64,000 nt of DNA from Bacteroidota bacterium (lineage in GTDB: Bacteria; Bacteroidota; Bacteroidia; Flavobacteriales_E; Vicingaceae). Every line of letters starts with the position of its first letter. Within the stretch, counting starts at the first letter, position 1. The notes beneath the pieces were generated by a model. The model made no database searches. It was not told the origin of the DNA and saw nothing but the letters and a program-made list of their open reading frames with translations. The position numbers and the translations under genes were made by a program. The stretch lies in contig JABFGJ010000001.1 of assembly GCA_013112545.1 (NCBI GenBank), positions 248,001 to 312,000 on the forward strand, written 5' to 3'. Below, piece by piece: positions 8,401-20,446 of the stretch.

Positions 8401-8560
8401 GGCCCTTGGTGCTGGCTCAGAAAGTAGAGTTTCTATGGGTATTGCAGTTATCGGAGGACTATTATTCTCAACCCTATTAACCCTTTATGTGATTCCAGCT
8501 ATATACAGCTATATTTCGTCTAAAGATAAACTTGTAAGCAATGTTGAAAAGGAAGAATAA
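5492..8560 (+). CDS. RND multidrug efflux permease, AcrB/HAE1 family
   Basis: A 1022-aa inner-membrane proton-driven pump of normal AcrB length. It opens SLSSISIRRPVLATVFSLV, has two six-helix halves each preceded by a large periplasmic loop, and carries the GLVVDDAIVVLENI motif around residue 405, with the paired Asp of the proton relay. The second half has the matching GLVTKNGILIVEFAN helix. It is translationally coupled to the adaptor (ATGA overlap), and its end overlaps the TolC gene by 20 bp, so the three genes form a compact tripartite efflux operon. Class HAE1 (hydrophobic/amphiphilic efflux) is inferred from overall similarity; the actual substrate is not predictable. Confidence 0.95.
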   Translation: MSLSSISIRRPVLATVFSLVILLFGIIGFNFLGVREYPSVDPPIITVATNYTGANADVIETQITEPLEESINGIAGIRTLSSVSRDGRSTISVEFDLSFDLDDAANDVRDKVSKAVGDLPEDADPPIVSKADADASPIIFLNIQSERRSLLELTEIAERTFKERLQTIPGVSEIRIWGEKKYAMRLWLDPAKMGALKITPVDVRTALLKQNIELPTGRIEGDNVELSVRTIGRLSTVEEFNNLIIKASSNQLIKFKDIGYAELGPENERTSLKRDGIPMVGNAIVPQPNSNHIEIADEFYKRLELIKKDLPEDIKIGIGFDTTEYIRDSITEVKQTIYIAFIMVILVIFVFLRDWRSTIIPVIVIPIALIGSFFIIYISGFSINVLTLLGIVLAIGLVVDDAIVVLENIYSKIESGMPSAKAAAEGSVEIFFAVIATTLALASVFMPVVFLQGVTGRLFREFGVVIAGAVIISSFVALTLTPMLASNLLKKEKKRTRFYVKTEGLFKKLNEAYRRSLESFMQKRWMSFVFLIGSFLLIFFVGNGLKSELAPLEDRGNLRVFSSAPEGMTFDYMSEYMEELVALIQDEVPERNGIISVTSPGFGASSSVNSGFVRLRLKNSSERNRSQQDIANALTNRMKELPGARNFVSQEQTIGDKRGGLPVQFVIQASTLEQLKETLPKFMSTASESKVFSVVDLNLKFNKPELEIRIDREKALSMGVSVIDIAQTLQLTLSGQRFDYFIMNGKQYQVIGQMERENRNEPSDLASIYVRNNQNEMISLGNIISLEEQSTPPQLFRYNRYVSATISAGLTPGNTLGTGIEEMEKIASTTLSDNFSTSLAGTSKEFQESSSSISFAFFFALILIYLVLAAQFESFRDPLIIMLTVPLAIAGAVVSLSVYGETLNIFSQIGIIMLIGLVTKNGILIVEFANQRKADGLTKLEAIVDASTSRFRPILMTTLSTVLGTLPIALALGAGSESRVSMGIAVIGGLLFSTLLTLYVIPAIYSYISSKDKLVSNVEKEE

Positions 8561-9857
8561 GTTAATTTTTAGTGTTTTGGTGATCTTATTTCCAATAATT
8601 ACCATTGCTCAAAACCAATTAAGTATTGAGCAAGCCATACAACTTGGCTTGGAAAATAACTTCAATATCAAGTTTGCTAAATTAGATAAGTCCATTGCGG
8701 AGAATCAAAATGAGTATGGTAATGCTGGGTTTTACCCAGAAATAAACGCCAATGGTTCGTATAGCCAAAATATAGAAAACACGAAGCTTGATTTTGCCGA
8801 TGGCAAATCTGTGAATCAAGACAATGCCGTTTCTTCCAATTTGAATGCTAATCTTGCTATGAACTGGATTATTTTTGATGGCACTAAAATGTTTATTACT
8901 AAAAGCAAATTAGAAGAATTAGAAAGCTTATCGGAATTAAACCTTCAGTTAAACATAAACAATAAGGTAGCTGAAATTATAACTACTTACACACAAATTG
9001 CAGCTGAGCAGCAAAACCTGGAGGCTTATCAGAGTCAGCTTGAAATAACTAAACAGCGATCTAATTTAAGCAAAAAGCAATTGGAAATTGGTAGTGGCTC
9101 CGCACTAGCTTTGTCTAAAGCTCAGGTAGATCAAAACGCCGACCAGGCATTGGTGACTAATCAAGAAGTTAATGTACTAAGAGCCAAAGTAAAATTAAAT
9201 CGGTTGCTAGGACGAAATGTGGAAGAAGAGTTTTCAATTTCGGATACGATTTCTTTTACAAACAACTTAAGCCTAGAAAATTTAATGCAGGCTGTAGAAC
9301 AAAATCCCAACCTCAGCATGTATAAAAAAGAAATTGGAATAGCTGTATTAGAGAAAAGAGAAATTTCTGCACAACGATTGCCAAAAATTGGAATAAGTGG
9401 CCGTTATAATTATGGCAAATCAGAGTCTGAAGCAGGTTTTGTTCGCTCGAACCAGGTTGATGGAATAAACTACGGCGCAAGCATTAGCATTCCTATTTTT
9501 AATGGCATGAATCTTAATCGACAAGAGCAAAATAATCGGATAAAAGTAGAGCAAAGTAAGCTTGCATACGAAGAAACTCTGTCTTTTATTAAGGAGCAGA
9601 TATTAGTTAATTACAAAACTTATGAAAGTAATTTAATCCAAATCGACTTTGAACAAAAAAACGTAATCCTTGCAAAGAAAAATGTAGATTTTGCTATTAA
9701 AAATTATGAACTAGGTGGAATTTCATCGCTTGAACTTCGTGAAATTCAGTTGGCCTATTTGAATGCAAAGCAACGATTAATCGACGTAAAATACTTGACC
9801 AAAACTGCGGAAACGGAATTGCTTCGATTGAGCAATCAATTAGTTAGTGGGCAATAA
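8541..9857 (+). CDS. TolC family outer membrane efflux protein
   Basis: A 438-aa outer-membrane factor. It has a signal peptide (hydrophobic to about residue 24, ending TIAQ), then SIEQAIQLGLENNFNIK, the typical start of the first TolC repeat, and a second repeat with long amphipathic helices. The start overlaps the last 20 bases of the permease gene. It would provide the outer-membrane exit duct for the upstream adaptor and pump. It is last in the operon; a perfect hairpin lies beyond its stop. A second, diverged TolC-family gene occurs at 46477-47853. Confidence 0.92.
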   Translation: MLKRKNKLIFSVLVILFPIITIAQNQLSIEQAIQLGLENNFNIKFAKLDKSIAENQNEYGNAGFYPEINANGSYSQNIENTKLDFADGKSVNQDNAVSSNLNANLAMNWIIFDGTKMFITKSKLEELESLSELNLQLNINNKVAEIITTYTQIAAEQQNLEAYQSQLEITKQRSNLSKKQLEIGSGSALALSKAQVDQNADQALVTNQEVNVLRAKVKLNRLLGRNVEEEFSISDTISFTNNLSLENLMQAVEQNPNLSMYKKEIGIAVLEKREISAQRLPKIGISGRYNYGKSESEAGFVRSNQVDGINYGASISIPIFNGMNLNRQEQNNRIKVEQSKLAYEETLSFIKEQILVNYKTYESNLIQIDFEQKNVILAKKNVDFAIKNYELGGISSLELREIQLAYLNAKQRLIDVKYLTKTAETELLRLSNQLVSGQ

Positions 9858-12360: not shown

Positions 12361-12442
12361 GCCCGGATGGCGGAATTGGTAGACGCGTTGGTCTCAAACA
12401 CCAATGTCTTCGGACGTGCCGGTTCGACCCCGGCTCCGGGTA
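12361..12442 (+). tRNA. tRNA-Leu (anticodon CAA)
   Basis: The acceptor arms GCCCGGA and TCCGGGT pair (last pair G-T). The anticodon arm TTGGT-CTCAAAC-ACCAA gives anticodon CAA for UUG codons. The long variable arm around TGTCTTCGGACGT is the class II feature of tRNA-Leu, and the T arm GGTTCGACCCC is intact. The CCA end is not encoded. A strong terminator follows immediately. It is the only tRNA in the window. Confidence 0.96.
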
Positions 12443-12443
12443 C

Positions 12444-12654: not shown

Positions 12655-13322
12655 TTATAAAATGATGACCTTTTTTTGAAACACCATATTATCTCTGCTT
12701 ATAAGCCTTAGAAAATAAGCTCCTTTTGATATTTTTGAAACGTTTATTTGATTAGTCACTAATTCTTGTACTAAAACTTTTTGACCTTTAAAATCCACTA
12801 TTTCAGCTTTAACTATATTTTCTATTTGCCCTATGTTCTCAATAGTTAATACATCTTTTACTGGATTAGGATAGATATTAAATTTCCTTTTATTGATTTT
12901 TTGTATTGTATTCGCATTTTGAACATGAATTTGTACAGTATCTGAACCGTATCGACTTCCGATTAATGGTGGGGCACTGCCATTATCTATCCAATTCCAA
13001 TGGCATATAAGATTATAATTGCCTGCTTGCAAGGGGTAATACTCAAAGGTATCTTTTCGTCCAAAACATGACATCTGCCAAACACCTGTAAAATCAAAGA
13101 TTAAATCAAAAATAATGTCTGGCCTTTTATCGAATCTGTTTGATTATATAAGGGGCTACAAAAATGAGGCGACCTACCATTATCCCTTAAAACAGAAAGA
13201 GTCTCAAATACTAATGTATCATTAACCGAAATTGTATCGGGAAATGTAGGCGTGATTTGAGCAGATGATGACGATTGGGAATGTCCAGTTATACTAAAAC
13301 ACATAAATAATAAATGTCTCAT
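12655..13322 (-). pseudogene. Frameshifted gene for a T9SS type A sorting domain protein
   Basis: Two minus-strand frames join into one protein if one base is gained or lost between 13104 and 13143. The first part (from ATG 13322) has a short signal peptide-like start ending ITGHSQS and runs to TAA at 13101. The second is open from 13143 and reads PDIIFDLIFDF, GVWQMSCFGRK and a 130-residue tail. That tail contains FNIYPNPVKDVLTIEN and ends SKGAYFLRLISRD..FQKKVIIL, a complete T9SS sorting domain. The whole would be about 220 aa. It may be a true frameshift or a sequencing error. It lies next to a second decayed T9SS fragment. Confidence 0.75.
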
Positions 13323-13325
13323 AAT

Positions 13326-13468
13326 TTACTGGATTGCATCAGTTTTTGTATCTGTGATAATACCATTTACCACTAAACTAAGTATATAAACCCCTGTTTT
13401 AAGTTGGAAATAGAGATACTGGAACTGTTTTGATTTGTGTTTATCGAAGATAATGAAAAAAAATCTTG
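13326..13468 (-). pseudogene. Fragment of another T9SS sorting domain, frameshifted
   Basis: Minus-strand reading gives NQNSSSISISNLK in one frame and then, after an apparent one-base loss in the A run at 13397-13400, TGVYILSLVVNGIITDTK and a stop at 13326. Together these are the C-terminal half of a T9SS type A domain. No signal peptide, body or YPNP motif remains. The stop is only 3 bases before the ATG of the next broken T9SS gene, as in a former tandem pair. The upstream limit is a stop codon at 13469. It is shorter than genuine CTDs, so this is a remnant. Confidence 0.65.
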
Positions 13469-13539
13469 TTACACAAAAAAGACCAGAGCAAGGTATTGCA
13501 TTTTGTGTTGTCCTAAATTTTCGTTTTTATAAAAAATAC

Positions 13540-14612: not shown

Positions 14613-15986
14613 CTATTGAGGTCGCCACATCAACCAAAGCCCTAAACCATACTGGTTAAACTTGCTGGAATACTCTTTTGTAAAAGAATTTAAATCCTTT
14701 TCATAGTTAAACCGAGTACCTATTAATACAAATTCATTCAATGAATAGCCAATACTTGCCGCATAGGTGTTGCTGATTACAAACTGCTTAATTTGATTGC
14801 CTTCCTCAAAAGAATTGATCCGATTGAAATCATTTGAAATGTAGGCTCCAGATTGTTGAAGTGAATAATTCAAATTAATTGAGGTTCTAATATTTCCATA
14901 GAAGCGACCAATGAATTTTTGAGCTCCAACTATAATGGGCACTTGAATTCGCTCAAACTCATTCCGAAAAAAGACATCTTTACTTACCGTAATTCCTTTT
15001 TCGGTTTCAATTCGCTCAACCTCTTGGCGAATTAAAATAACTGGAACTCCATTGCTATTGTAGTTTCCATTTACTACATAATAGCTGGTGTCAAAACTAA
15101 CATCATACCCAATTCCTGAAGCATTAACCTGATAACTAACTCTTTCGCTGTATTTACTATGGCGAATACCAATACCAAATTGTAAAAATTGATAATTGGT
15201 CAATAGGTTTATCCCAACATTGGTTGAGGAGTTTGATTTCTCCGCTTGAATTCGATAGCTTTCTAGTGTTGGGTTTTGTATAGAAACTTCTTTGTTTAAA
15301 ACCACACTTCTACTCGCCTCTATTTCATAATAATATTGGCGCTTTTTATATAGCTTGTTTTTGTTTTCAACTCCTTTTGCTTGAATTATTTCTTGCTTTT
15401 CATATCTATACGGCAAACTATTTAATAGAAAAAGCGGTTCAAGTGTTAATTCGACCTCAGCTACCATTAATTCGGAGTTCATAATTGCGGTATTCTTGGG
15501 TAAAACCAAAGTCTTGTCTTTTCGCTTTAAGCGATCAATTTTTTGGCTAATTCCTGTTGTATTGCTAACTCCTGATTCACGGCTTGCGATATTCGTAAGA
15601 CTAATTTGTTGATTGGTGTTTGCTGTTAAGGCATTGCCTTTTGAATTGTTTTCAATGGGTTTAATTGTTTTATTTTCAATGCGTACTTGCTTTGTATCTA
15701 CTTCACTTAAACTCGAAAGCTGAGTATTCTCAGTGTTTATCGATTCATTCTCGTTTATTGATAACTTAGGTTTTACATCAATGTCAGTATCTGTTTTTAA
15801 GATCATAGATATTGACAACAAAGCTAAAACCCAAAGGCTATTTAATTGAAAGTGCCAAAACCCTCTATGAGATTTTGATGCGTTAGGTAAGCTACTTTCT
15901 ACTTGATTCCACAAGTTTTCATCGTATTGAAAATCTTGTTTTAAACCCTGTTGGAAAAGCTCATCTATGTTGTTTTTTTCTTCCAT
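14613..15986 (-). CDS. Membrane-anchored anti-sigma-like protein with C-terminal outer-membrane beta-barrel-like region
   Basis: A 457-aa protein, 2 bp downstream of an ECF sigma gene. Residues 1-40 are charged and look cytoplasmic (NIDELFQQGLKQDF, ENLWNQVESSLP), like the N-termini of Bacteroidota anti-sigma-type proteins. One hydrophobic segment follows (about 43-63). Then comes a long polar linker, and from about 215 a series of alternating aromatic strands ending LGLWLMWRPQ, resembling a porin-family barrel. The context suggests it controls the sigma factor. Whether one chain spans both membranes or the barrel call is misleading cannot be decided from sequence. No catalytic motif. Confidence 0.65.
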   Translation of the reverse strand: MEEKNNIDELFQQGLKQDFQYDENLWNQVESSLPNASKSHRGFWHFQLNSLWVLALLSISMILKTDTDIDVKPKLSINENESINTENTQLSSLSEVDTKQVRIENKTIKPIENNSKGNALTANTNQQISLTNIASRESGVSNTTGISQKIDRLKRKDKTLVLPKNTAIMNSELMVAEVELTLEPLFLLNSLPYRYEKQEIIQAKGVENKNKLYKKRQYYYEIEASRSVVLNKEVSIQNPTLESYRIQAEKSNSSTNVGINLLTNYQFLQFGIGIRHSKYSERVSYQVNASGIGYDVSFDTSYYVVNGNYNSNGVPVILIRQEVERIETEKGITVSKDVFFRNEFERIQVPIIVGAQKFIGRFYGNIRTSINLNYSLQQSGAYISNDFNRINSFEEGNQIKQFVISNTYAASIGYSLNEFVLIGTRFNYEKDLNSFTKEYSSKFNQYGLGLWLMWRPQ

Positions 15987-15988
15987 AA

Positions 15989-16537
15989 TTATGTTTTTTC
16001 ATGATAAACTTCAAGCATAGCTCTTAGCTTAATTCTTGCTTCTCTTAAATGCCACTTAGAGGTGTTTTCATTCATGTCTAGCATTTCTGCAATTTCACGA
16101 TGCTTATATCCATCTATAGCGTATAAATTAAAAACCTGAGCAGATGCTTCAGGTAACTTTTTTATCATTTGTAATAAATATTCTGATTCCATTTCAGCTT
16201 CTCTAGTATGGTATGTAGCTTGCTTGACTCCCCACTGTTCTTTGTCAGAAAAACTCAATTTACTCCGCTCTCGTTTTTCTTTTCTGTATTCGTCTATCAA
16301 ATGATTTACTGCAATTCTCTTTATCCAAGCAATAAAAGAATCTTGATGTTCAAATCGGTCGAGGTTGTTTAGTATTTTTAAATAAATGGCGTTTAAACTA
16401 GCACCTGCAGTATCGTAGTCGTTTTTATAACGCATACAAATATTCATAAGATAAGAAAATAGCTCCTTGTAAAGTTGATTTTGAGCAACTCTCTCTTGTT
16501 TTAAACAAGCTTCTAACAAGGATTTTTCTATCTTCAT
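15989..16537 (-). CDS. RNA polymerase ECF sigma factor
   Basis: A 182-aa sigma-70 family ECF factor. Region 2 covers about residues 15-90 (YLMNICMRYKNDYDTA, DSFIAWIKRIAVNHLID). Region 4 covers 125-180 (LPEASAQVFNLYAIDGYKHREIAEML), with the helix-turn-helix ending NTSKWHLREARIKLR. It starts 11 bp after the stop of a large PKD-repeat protein gene and ends 2 bp before the putative anti-sigma gene, so the three are likely one transcript. The regulon is unknown. Family assignment is secure; coupling of its activity to the neighbour is inference. Confidence 0.93.
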   Translation of the reverse strand: MKIEKSLLEACLKQERVAQNQLYKELFSYLMNICMRYKNDYDTAGASLNAIYLKILNNLDRFEHQDSFIAWIKRIAVNHLIDEYRKEKRERSKLSFSDKEQWGVKQATYHTREAEMESEYLLQMIKKLPEASAQVFNLYAIDGYKHREIAEMLDMNENTSKWHLREARIKLRAMLEVYHEKT

Positions 16538-16548
16538 TGAGACCTCTA

Positions 16549-18843
16549 CTACTTGTTTTGTTTGATTAACTTTTTTACAATCGACTCCTTACCATTACTA
16601 ATCCGAATAAAATAAACTCCTGCTTTAAGCTCTGATAAATTAATAATGTTCCCATGCATTTTTCCTTCGGTCATAACTTGGCTATTTATGTTGAATAGCT
16701 GATAGAAATATGATTCATTCATCTTGATATTAAAGCGAATAGCATCAACAACAGGATTCGGGTAAATAGATAATTTGCTTAATGGATTCGATTCTTCTAC
16801 CCCAATAAAATCGCCTTCCAAAACCTTGATTGTATAGCCTCTTGATTTTACTATTTTGCCAGTTGAGTCTAATCCAACAGTATCGCAATAAGTTGAAGTG
16901 CAATTCATAACGGTATCATAAATGGTTAAACAAACTTCATGAGGACCATAATTTTGGTAAACGTGAGTAGGCAATCTTCCAATGTCAAAGCTACCATCAC
17001 CAAAAGACCAACTGTAACTGTGGGTTTTATCGTTTGAAGATGTATTAATGAGGTACAGTGTTCCAATATTGTTTGTGTCTATTCCAATTTGAAAATTTGC
17101 AAAACAAGAAGTGGAAACACTTACTGAAATAGTATCTCTAAACACATCTACACATGATCTAGAAATGTTTAATACGGTTTGTTTCACTACATAAGTTCCG
17201 CTATTGGTGTAATGGTGTAAGGGGTTGGCCTGACTTGAACTTGAGCCATCGCCAAAATCATATTGTATGCTGGTATAGTTTGTAGCAGTGTTATAAAAAT
17301 AAATCGAATCTCCTTGTTGTTGGTAAGTAAACCCAGCATTACAGGTGTTGATAGCAACTAATAAAGTATCACACTTTGTATCTGAACAGCCATTCGAATT
17401 GTAAACTGTTTGGCAAACAATGTAAGTTCCTGCTTGACTATATATATGTGTAGGGTTGAGCAAAGTGCTATAGTTTCCATCACCAAAATCATATAGAAGC
17501 GAATCAAAATTTTGAGCTAAATTTTGAATCATTAAAGTATCTTGAGATAAGAAATACCCATAATCGGCTTGACATGGCTGCGAGATATTCACAGAAATTG
17601 TATCGCAAAATGTATCGCTGCATCCATTTGAATTGCTTACCGTTTGACAAACAAGATAATTTCCATTTTGCAAATATGTATGTGAAGGATTCGGTTGATT
17701 GGATGTGCTACCATCACCAAAATCATAAAAAATACTGCTGTAATTTTGAGCTGTGCTGCTAAATTGTACTGAACCTTGGTTGACTGTATAATTAAAACCT
17801 GCTTGGCATGCAGGAGAGATACTGACAGTAATTGTATCAGTAAAAACATCTACACATGAAAGCTTTTTTACTATTTGCCACACGACATATGTTCCACTTT
17901 GAGCATAAGTATGAACTGGGTTTGGAAGACTAGAAGAATCACCATCACCAAATACATATTTAATCGAATTATAATTACTTGCTGTGTTTGTAAAACTTAC
18001 GGTAGCGTTAGAAATCGTGTAAGTATATCCAGCAACACAATTTGGTGGTACATTAATATTTATCGTGTCTTTATAAGTATCTGAACAATTGTTCGATGCA
18101 TTAAAAGTTGATAAACTAACAACATACGTACCTGAGTTTAAATATGTATGAGTCGCATTTCTTTGATATACTCTAGGGCTTCCATCGCCAAAGTCCCAAG
18201 CAAAAGTAGTTTGTGGTGGCACTATAGATTGGTTTGTAAAATTAACAGAGCCAGAACCTGATATATTAGAAGTAAATATAGCCTCGCAACTATTTACAAA
18301 TACGCTATCGATCATATTACACGACAATCCATTGGCTGTATTTACGGTTAAACTCACAACATAGACACCTGAATTATTATATCCATGAATTGGGTTTGCT
18401 TGAGAAGAAACGCTTCCATCTCCAAAGTCCCACTGATAAGTTAAAGGAGCTAAGCCACCTGTAATACTTGTGAAATAAACATAATTAGTCGTATCTGTAG
18501 TATAGGTGAATGAAGCAGAGCAAGGAGGATTTACGATGCTTCCAACTTGAATGGTATCACAATAAGTGTCTCTACAACCAGTCGTAGAGATAATGGATAA
18601 GCAAACGACATACAATCCATTTTGGTTGTAAGTATGCCCTGGATTCGAAAGAGTAGAGCTTCCTCCATCACCAAAATCCCAAGCATAAATTAAGTTTCCT
18701 GAATTAGTCCATGAACTATCAGAAAACTGCATAGTTGTACCACCTCCACTATAGCTATAAAAGTATGCTTGACAATTTTGAGCACTACTTTTTATTAGAA
18801 ATAAACTTAGAAGTGACATTATTAATATGAGTTTTTTCTTCAT
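16549..18843 (-). CDS. Large PKD-repeat surface protein with T9SS sorting domain
   Basis: A 764-aa secreted protein: signal peptide (to about residue 21, ending SSAQ), about eight PKD modules of 75-80 residues, and a C-terminal sorting domain from roughly 690 (SIYPNPVVD..., ending KAGVYFIRISN..IVKKLIKQ). Each module carries the PKD core (WDFGDG, YDFGDG or similar). Most also have a paired-Cys tail of the type GCSDTFCDT, suggesting intramodule disulfides. Such proteins are usually adhesins or scaffolds. The four central modules are most alike, indicating internal duplication. It is a tandem paralogue of the next gene upstream and lies 11 bp upstream of the ECF sigma gene. Confidence 0.9.
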   Translation of the reverse strand: MKKKLILIMSLLSLFLIKSSAQNCQAYFYSYSGGGTTMQFSDSSWTNSGNLIYAWDFGDGGSSTLSNPGHTYNQNGLYVVCLSIISTTGCRDTYCDTIQVGSIVNPPCSASFTYTTDTTNYVYFTSITGGLAPLTYQWDFGDGSVSSQANPIHGYNNSGVYVVSLTVNTANGLSCNMIDSVFVNSCEAIFTSNISGSGSVNFTNQSIVPPQTTFAWDFGDGSPRVYQRNATHTYLNSGTYVVSLSTFNASNNCSDTYKDTININVPPNCVAGYTYTISNATVSFTNTASNYNSIKYVFGDGDSSSLPNPVHTYAQSGTYVVWQIVKKLSCVDVFTDTITVSISPACQAGFNYTVNQGSVQFSSTAQNYSSIFYDFGDGSTSNQPNPSHTYLQNGNYLVCQTVSNSNGCSDTFCDTISVNISQPCQADYGYFLSQDTLMIQNLAQNFDSLLYDFGDGNYSTLLNPTHIYSQAGTYIVCQTVYNSNGCSDTKCDTLLVAINTCNAGFTYQQQGDSIYFYNTATNYTSIQYDFGDGSSSSQANPLHHYTNSGTYVVKQTVLNISRSCVDVFRDTISVSVSTSCFANFQIGIDTNNIGTLYLINTSSNDKTHSYSWSFGDGSFDIGRLPTHVYQNYGPHEVCLTIYDTVMNCTSTYCDTVGLDSTGKIVKSRGYTIKVLEGDFIGVEESNPLSKLSIYPNPVVDAIRFNIKMNESYFYQLFNINSQVMTEGKMHGNIINLSELKAGVYFIRISNGKESIVKKLIKQNK

Positions 18844-18895
18844 TTAATAAGTGTTTTAGTTAAGACGGAAAGAAGTCCTAATTGGTTGGGGTAAT

Positions 18896-18930
18896 TAAAA
18901 AAAAAGCCCGTAATCCTAAGACTACGGGCT
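18896..18930 (-). terminator. Intrinsic terminator after the shorter PKD gene
   Basis: On the minus strand AGCCCGTA and TACGGGCT form an 8-bp GC-rich stem with a 10-base loop, followed by nine T residues. It ends the transcript of the gene at 18950-20353 and separates it from the larger PKD gene, which must then have its own promoter. Confidence 0.9.
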
Positions 18931-18949
18931 CTACATCTTGTGTAAAAAG

Positions 18950-20353
18950 CTAGTTATTTACAACTATTTTTTCTACTCTTCTTTTGTTTCCATCATTTAA
19001 TATCATAAAATAAAACCCTGAGTTTAACTTGCTGATATCTATCGTTTCTACTGAACCTGAATTTGTTCTATGTTTAGAAACAACTTCCTTACCAGAAATA
19101 TCTACAATTTGAATTTCAACTCGCTCACTTGAATTTCGCAAATCAATCGAAATTTGATTCGTAGCTGGATTAGGATAAATACTCAATGTTTCCAAAGTCA
19201 CATTTTCTTCAACGCCAACTGTAGTTGGGATTCGAACCTCTAAACCAAAGCCTTGTGATTTTAATCTTCCTAAAGAATCCATTCCAACTGTATCACAAAA
19301 GGTAGAAGTACACTGTAATTGATTATCTGTAATGGTTAGACAAACTACATAAGAGCCAAAATTCTGATATTGGTGTTGTGGAATTCTTCCTGAACCTGTT
19401 GTTCCGTCACCAAAGTCCCAAAAATAAGTGTGTGAGCTTGCATTGCTAGAAGTATTATACAATATCACTTTAAAGCTTGCAGAAGAATCTAATGCCACAT
19501 AATAACTTGCACTACAGCCCTGAGGTTGTGTATTTATGTTAACAATGATGCTATCGGTGTAAGTACTAAAGCAACTATTTAAAGAATCATATGAATTTAA
19601 AGTAACATTATAAGTCCCAGAGGCTGTATAAGTATGAGAGCCATTTTTTCGATAATCCAAGTTGCTTCCATCTCCATAATTCCACCAATAACTTACTCCA
19701 TACGAAGGATTTGCAGAATAGTTTGTAAAGCTTACAGCTCCTGTGGCACTTGGGGTTGATGCTATAAAGTAAGCATTACAATAATTAACATAAACAGTAT
19801 CGTAGGCCATACAAGTCACCCCGTTTGTATCAACTACACTAAAAGTTACTCCATAAGCTCCAGGACTATTATATAAGTGAGTAGGGGTAGCTTGAGTTGA
19901 AACAGGACTCCCATCTCCAAAATCCCAAGAATAAGTAAATGGTGCTGTACCACCCGTCGCTTGGCCTGTGAAATAAGCATTATTTAGAGTATCAGTATTA
20001 TAATAGAAATATGCTTGACAAGGAGGATTGATAATAATCCCACCAACTTGAATGGTATCACAGTAGGTATCTCTACATCCTGTTGTTGAAGTAATTGATA
20101 AGCAAACTAAATACATTCCGTTTTGATTATACGAATGGCTTGGGTTAGATAATGTGGAAGAAGCTCCATCGCCAAAATCCCAGGCATAAGTTAAATTTCC
20201 AGTTGCTGTCCAAGAACTATCTGCAAATTGCATGGTAGTACCACTGCCATTACTATAGCTATAAAAATATGCTTGACAGTTTTGTGCTTGAGTGCTTAAA
20301 CTGATTACCATCAGTAAACAAAAGCTAAATAAAAAGGTAATTTTTTTCATCAT
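18950..20353 (-). CDS. PKD-repeat surface protein with T9SS sorting domain
   Basis: A 467-aa secreted protein from the ATG at 20353 (MMKKITFLFSFCLL, signal peptide ending TQAQ); a more distant ATG at 20398 would add 15 residues before the signal and is unlikely. Four PKD modules (WDFGDGASS, WDFGDGSPV, WNYGDGSNL, WDFGDGTTG) lead to a sorting domain (SIYPNPATNQISIDL, ending NSGFYFMILND..RVEKIVVNN). The first two modules and the last one are strongly similar to those of the 764-aa neighbour, including the opening NCQAYFYSYS and the GCRDTYCDT motif, so the two arose by tandem duplication. A terminator follows its stop. Confidence 0.9.
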   Translation of the reverse strand: MMKKITFLFSFCLLMVISLSTQAQNCQAYFYSYSNGSGTTMQFADSSWTATGNLTYAWDFGDGASSTLSNPSHSYNQNGMYLVCLSITSTTGCRDTYCDTIQVGGIIINPPCQAYFYYNTDTLNNAYFTGQATGGTAPFTYSWDFGDGSPVSTQATPTHLYNSPGAYGVTFSVVDTNGVTCMAYDTVYVNYCNAYFIASTPSATGAVSFTNYSANPSYGVSYWWNYGDGSNLDYRKNGSHTYTASGTYNVTLNSYDSLNSCFSTYTDSIIVNINTQPQGCSASYYVALDSSASFKVILYNTSSNASSHTYFWDFGDGTTGSGRIPQHQYQNFGSYVVCLTITDNQLQCTSTFCDTVGMDSLGRLKSQGFGLEVRIPTTVGVEENVTLETLSIYPNPATNQISIDLRNSSERVEIQIVDISGKEVVSKHRTNSGSVETIDISKLNSGFYFMILNDGNKRRVEKIVVNN

Positions 20354-20446
20354 TATAAATTTTAATTGTTTGATGATAGAACGATTGCCTAAGTGCAACA
20401 GTTGGTAAATATATAAAATAAAAAGTAAACTGTTGATTCTAAAAGG

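Follow-up and report, generated by a model that had tools for sequence, protein, structure and literature searches.

A Dma-like ECF sigma/anti-sigma pair conserved next to T9SS-exported PKD surface proteins and a predicted common promoter motif in Bacteroidia

In the 64-kb stretch of Bacteroidota DNA analyzed here (the window), the gene of an ECF sigma factor is enclosed by the gene of a PKD-domain surface protein and that of a 457-aa hybrid protein, which combines an anti-sigma-like N-terminal part with a predicted outer-membrane barrel. Most probably, the hybrid is a Dma-type anti-sigma factor that would release the ECF sigma factor upon a change at the outer membrane or cell surface, and thereby switch on the PKD paralogue PKD2 and the PKD1-ECF-hybrid operon. 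Such tethers as a class are already known from gut Bacteroides; what is new is the conserved pairing with secreted surface proteins via a predicted common promoter. The gene order PKD, ECF, hybrid, found at about 13 loci in two Bacteroidia lineages, is likewise new.

All three genes lie on the minus strand, with 11 bp between PKD1 and the ECF gene and 2 bp between the latter and the hybrid gene. This order and both gaps had been described in an earlier note made from the sequence alone, and they agree with the ORF positions and the Pfam/NCBIfam domain matches. The unit is, however, wider than the three genes delimited there, as it also comprises PKD2 (18950-20353) and two promoter-like sites. 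Its features are as follows:

14613..15986, minus strand: Dma-type hybrid protein, 457 aa (ORF, AlphaFold model, structure matches)
15989..16537, minus strand: ECF sigma factor, 182 aa (Sigma70_r2 and r4_2 above cut-off)
16549..18843, minus strand: PKD1, 764 aa, first gene of the operon (Pfam/NCBIfam domains)
18865..18889, minus strand: predicted ECF promoter of the PKD1-ECF-hybrid operon, CCAACCAATTAGGACTTCTTTCCGT (CCAAC-N17-CGT motif)
18903..18932, minus strand: hairpin followed by a T run, resembling an intrinsic terminator, downstream of PKD2
18950..20353, minus strand: PKD2, paralogue of PKD1 (domains, promoter position)
20381..20405, minus strand: predicted ECF promoter of PKD2, CCAACTGTTGCACTTAGGCAATCGT (CCAAC-N17-CGT motif)

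PKD1 is composed of a signal peptide-like start, eight PKD_4 stretches and a Por_Secre_tail, while PKD2 carries four PKD_4 stretches and a T9SS tail; the two share 53% identity over 357 aa. Both reveal C-terminal Por_Secre_tail/TIGR04183 matches above cut-off, which mark them as T9SS type A cargo. Translation of PKD2 more likely begins with the ATG at 20353, because the listed TTG would fall inside the promoter. A literature search joining ECF sigma, PKD domain, T9SS and Bacteroidetes returned nothing beyond work on PorZ. Elsewhere in the window, a tRNA-Leu (caa) gene is located at 12361-12443 on the plus strand, and a 139-aa ORF with a T9SS tail (12655-13490) appears to be the leftover 3' end of a larger gene, the upstream part of which runs on in other frames.

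The sigma factor shows both the Sigma70_r2 and the Sigma70_r4_2 Pfam region above cut-off, and its match to TIGR02985 stays below cut-off. The genome from which the window derives contains 15 Sigma70_r4_2 matches, 12 of them above cut-off.

We followed the arrangement from the same family to higher taxonomic levels. Single-sequence search identified the hybrid in only nine of 46 same-family genomes; profile search gave matches in 11 of the 46, some of them weak and to other hybrids. Eight family loci keep the order PKD, ECF, hybrid, often next to dxs, while the other neighbours vary. Among 395 Bacteroidia genomes, the hybrid profile matches in 126 at E up to 0.01, and an ECF gene lies directly upstream of the distant hybrid relatives at every locus that has upstream DNA (29/29). 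A search of contigs with the hybrid alone yielded no relative; the search with an ECF alignment succeeded. A PKD gene again precedes the ECF gene in a second lineage, at L032 and at the outgroup loci L101-L104, and Acidiluteibacter ferrifornacis (Flavobacteriales) is among the carriers. Since the three genes keep their order in eight same-family genomes and in this second lineage, the arrangement is far beyond chance. In a phylogenetic tree, the PKD-associated ECF sigma factors group together in a single clade (support 96/95).

Two local deviations were observed. At L102 and L104 (5900-6000 in each), the PKD and ECF genes are separated by a G+C-rich hairpin with T after it, possibly an attenuator, whereas the window has only the 11-bp gap at this place. 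At L014, one of the eight family loci, the ECF frame (about 8413-8960) contains an in-frame TAG, due to either a sequencing error or a recent loss; its PKD genes, promoter motifs and hybrid gene seem undamaged.

The hybrid itself remained without a match in Pfam and NCBIfam, with E-values of up to 1 allowed. The anatomy proposed for it in the earlier note is borne out: the protein has one main hydrophobic segment, at about 43-63, followed by a polar linker and a predicted barrel. The structure prediction suggested there was run and gave a very confident eight-stranded barrel for the C-terminus rather than a non-barrel fold: AlphaFold models residues 217-454 as an eight-stranded outer-membrane barrel with a pLDDT of about 95-98 over most of its length. 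Ten-residue blocks from 221 on have a mean pLDDT of 79-98, mostly above 90, in the run with 31 Bacteroidia sequences, and the barrel is already confident with eight family sequences. Its solved neighbours are small outer-membrane barrels, the best natural structures being OprF (Z 17.6), NspA (Z 15.7), OmpA (Z 15.5) and OmpW (Z 15.1).

Ahead of the barrel, the linker 64-208 (about 145 residues) is disordered in the 31-sequence model (pLDDT below 50), and its polar fraction is 0.67-0.80. The N-terminal helices (aa 5-15 and 23-32) and the membrane helix (41-62) are modelled with moderate confidence, with block means of about 52-81, and of about 58-81 for the N-terminus alone. The membrane helix has a modest hydrophobicity (Kyte-Doolittle 1.53) and a weak flanking charge bias in the window protein; a single membrane helix or hydrophobic segment at about 43-68 was found in 12 of 12 relatives tested. 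Hybrid relatives also conserve an N-terminal motif, IDxLFxxG...PxxExxW.

Strands 3 and 4 of the barrel (268-309 and 315-359) reach far past the membrane as a long hairpin. In the model this hairpin would be extracellular, because the short turns at 266-267, 360-361 and 416-419 fit the periplasmic side. It holds many of the hybrid residues that are invariant in the family (D299, T300, Y302, N312, G313, P315, L318, I319). A hairpin signature specific for PKD-associated hybrids was considered and dropped, as some relatives that lack a PKD neighbour have parts of it as well.

This layout corresponds to Dma, a family of dual membrane-spanning anti-sigma factors described for Bacteroides (PMC13088901; PMC9308784). 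According to the former, which cites Pardue et al. 2024 (doi 10.1073/pnas.2321910121), Dma proteins consist of an N-terminal sigma-binding region, a membrane helix, a long disordered tether and a C-terminal barrel, and adjoin an ECF21 gene. The hybrid shares the four-part layout and the neighbouring ECF gene: it has the predicted C-terminal barrel, a single membrane helix after a short, putatively cytoplasmic N-terminus and the disordered tether. We therefore call it Dma-like, filed by architecture and gene context, with sequence comparison confined to its other Bacteroidia relatives. The claim of the earlier note that one chain across both membranes could control the ECF sigma factor is plausible, as it matches the Dma family and the predicted barrel.

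Dma2 belongs to a three-gene operon, deletion of dma2 raises the expression of its neighbours, which carry DUF4858 and DUF4943, and the phenotype depends on the cognate sigma factor (PMC13088901). The third gene here, in contrast, encodes a T9SS-exported PKD protein. Reported effects of Dma concern vesicles and polysaccharide utilisation loci, and the Dma2 paper calls for identification of the sensed substrates (PMC13088901). A further parallel is the sigma/anti-sigma pair M0N98_03760/03761 of Phocaeicola vulgatus, which is induced by envelope damage; its large anti-sigma factor is likewise predicted to cross the periplasm and to carry an outer-membrane barrel, with the sigma gene upstream. 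The regulon of this pair is tied to O-antigen length and NigD-like genes, and a PKD or T9SS partner is not mentioned in the excerpted text of that report (PMC9308784). As in signalling by FecI, FecR and a TonB-dependent transducer, a surface state would be passed to an ECF sigma factor, but here barrel and anti-sigma region are united in one chain. Pfam search at E up to 1 detected no FecR domain in the hybrid, and the listed neighbouring ORFs include no TonB-dependent receptor. Hence, of the proposed surface-signalling unit distinct from known systems, the separation from FecR stands, while its novelty as a class does not, given the match to the experimentally studied Dma proteins.

The evidence for PKD genes as targets comes from the promoter regions. 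The motif CCAAC-N17-CGT is located just upstream of 18 of 19 PKD genes, where 0.011 were expected by first-order resampling. The same loci contain 159 ORFs that encode 150 aa or more; it precedes 16 of these, all of them PKD genes, and none of the 143 others. The motif had been picked by eye from the region before the PKD genes at L012-L019, a part of this set, so that it is tested independently by the outgroup loci, L079 and the window's PKD2. It was afterwards present in all four outgroup loci L101-L104, and the 64-kb window contains exactly two sites, one before each PKD gene. Known ECF promoters have a similar spacing and a similar CGT element, and the sequence evidence strongly suggests that CCAAC-N17-CGT is the promoter of this very ECF sigma factor. 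A scan of the region for sigma-70-type promoters gave fewer sites than shuffled sequences. As a terminator-like hairpin separates PKD2 from the PKD1 operon, the two promoters would drive separate transcripts. Regulation of the PKD protein, one of the two roles considered for it in the earlier note, gains strong sequence support from the common motif.

Genome-wide, CCAAC-N17-CGTM occurs at 16 sites in the genome of the window, fewer than the 38 of the reversed control. The sites that were compared with ORFs are, PKD1 aside, mostly intragenic or unconvincingly placed, and we therefore claim no wider regulon. A stricter pattern in nine genomes retrieved PKD sites and a few others, one of which precedes a PKD2-like gene of genome G034. 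At L043 (799), CCAAC-N17-CGT is found before the ECF gene of a Dma-like pair, with no PKD gene in the DNA examined at this locus.

The PKD proteins may be more than targets. A tentative and rather doubtful extension is that they are also the sensed ligand, such that their docking on the strand 3/4 hairpin, or their absence from it, makes the tether hold or release the sigma factor. The lasting linkage of the PKD genes to the sigma/hybrid pair, in one clade and two lineages, points in this direction, as do the single promoter type of PKD genes and pair and the many invariant residues of the hairpin; similar hairpin residues in some relatives without PKD neighbours speak against it. On this basis the cell could conceivably, at similarly low probability, sense its own T9SS-delivered PKD coat via the hairpin and adjust PKD through the common CCAAC-N17-CGT promoters in a closed loop.

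Membrane anti-sigma factors are usually inactivated by regulated cleavage, and the chain might accordingly be cut after the membrane helix, leaving a separate outer-membrane barrel and a plain anti-sigma factor without mechanical communication. We regard this as improbable, since the N-terminal part and the barrel remain fused in the aligned relatives and the long linker persists throughout them. Very unlikely, finally, is an adjacency by inheritance only, with the hybrid as a non-regulatory outer-membrane protein with an uncleaved signal anchor: the ECF gene is directly upstream at each of the testable distant loci, and the published Dma2 phenotype requires the cognate sigma factor (PMC13088901).

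Under the preferred reading as a Dma-type anti-sigma factor, the N-terminal helices of the hybrid would keep the sigma factor encoded next to it at the inner membrane, with one helix crossing this membrane and the disordered tether of about 145 residues spanning the periplasm. The confidently predicted barrel would reside in the outer membrane, its long hairpin outside. Points that weigh against this reading are the moderate model confidence of the N-terminus, the modest hydrophobicity and weak charge bias of the membrane helix, and the small share of family genomes with a match. Judging from the work on Dma, a change in the outer membrane or at the surface may be passed down the tether or trigger cleavage, and so free the sigma factor. 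The freed sigma factor would read CCAAC-N17-CGT and switch on PKD2 and the PKD1-ECF-hybrid operon. The outcome would be a self-limiting loop, in which T9SS-exported PKD surface proteins are made on demand.

In both lineages, then, the Dma-like pair is accompanied by the same secreted partner; the promoter motif that goes with it is short and exact in its spacing, and the predicted regulon is small. This suggests a route for the regulation of T9SS surface proteins that is separate from FecR-type signalling.
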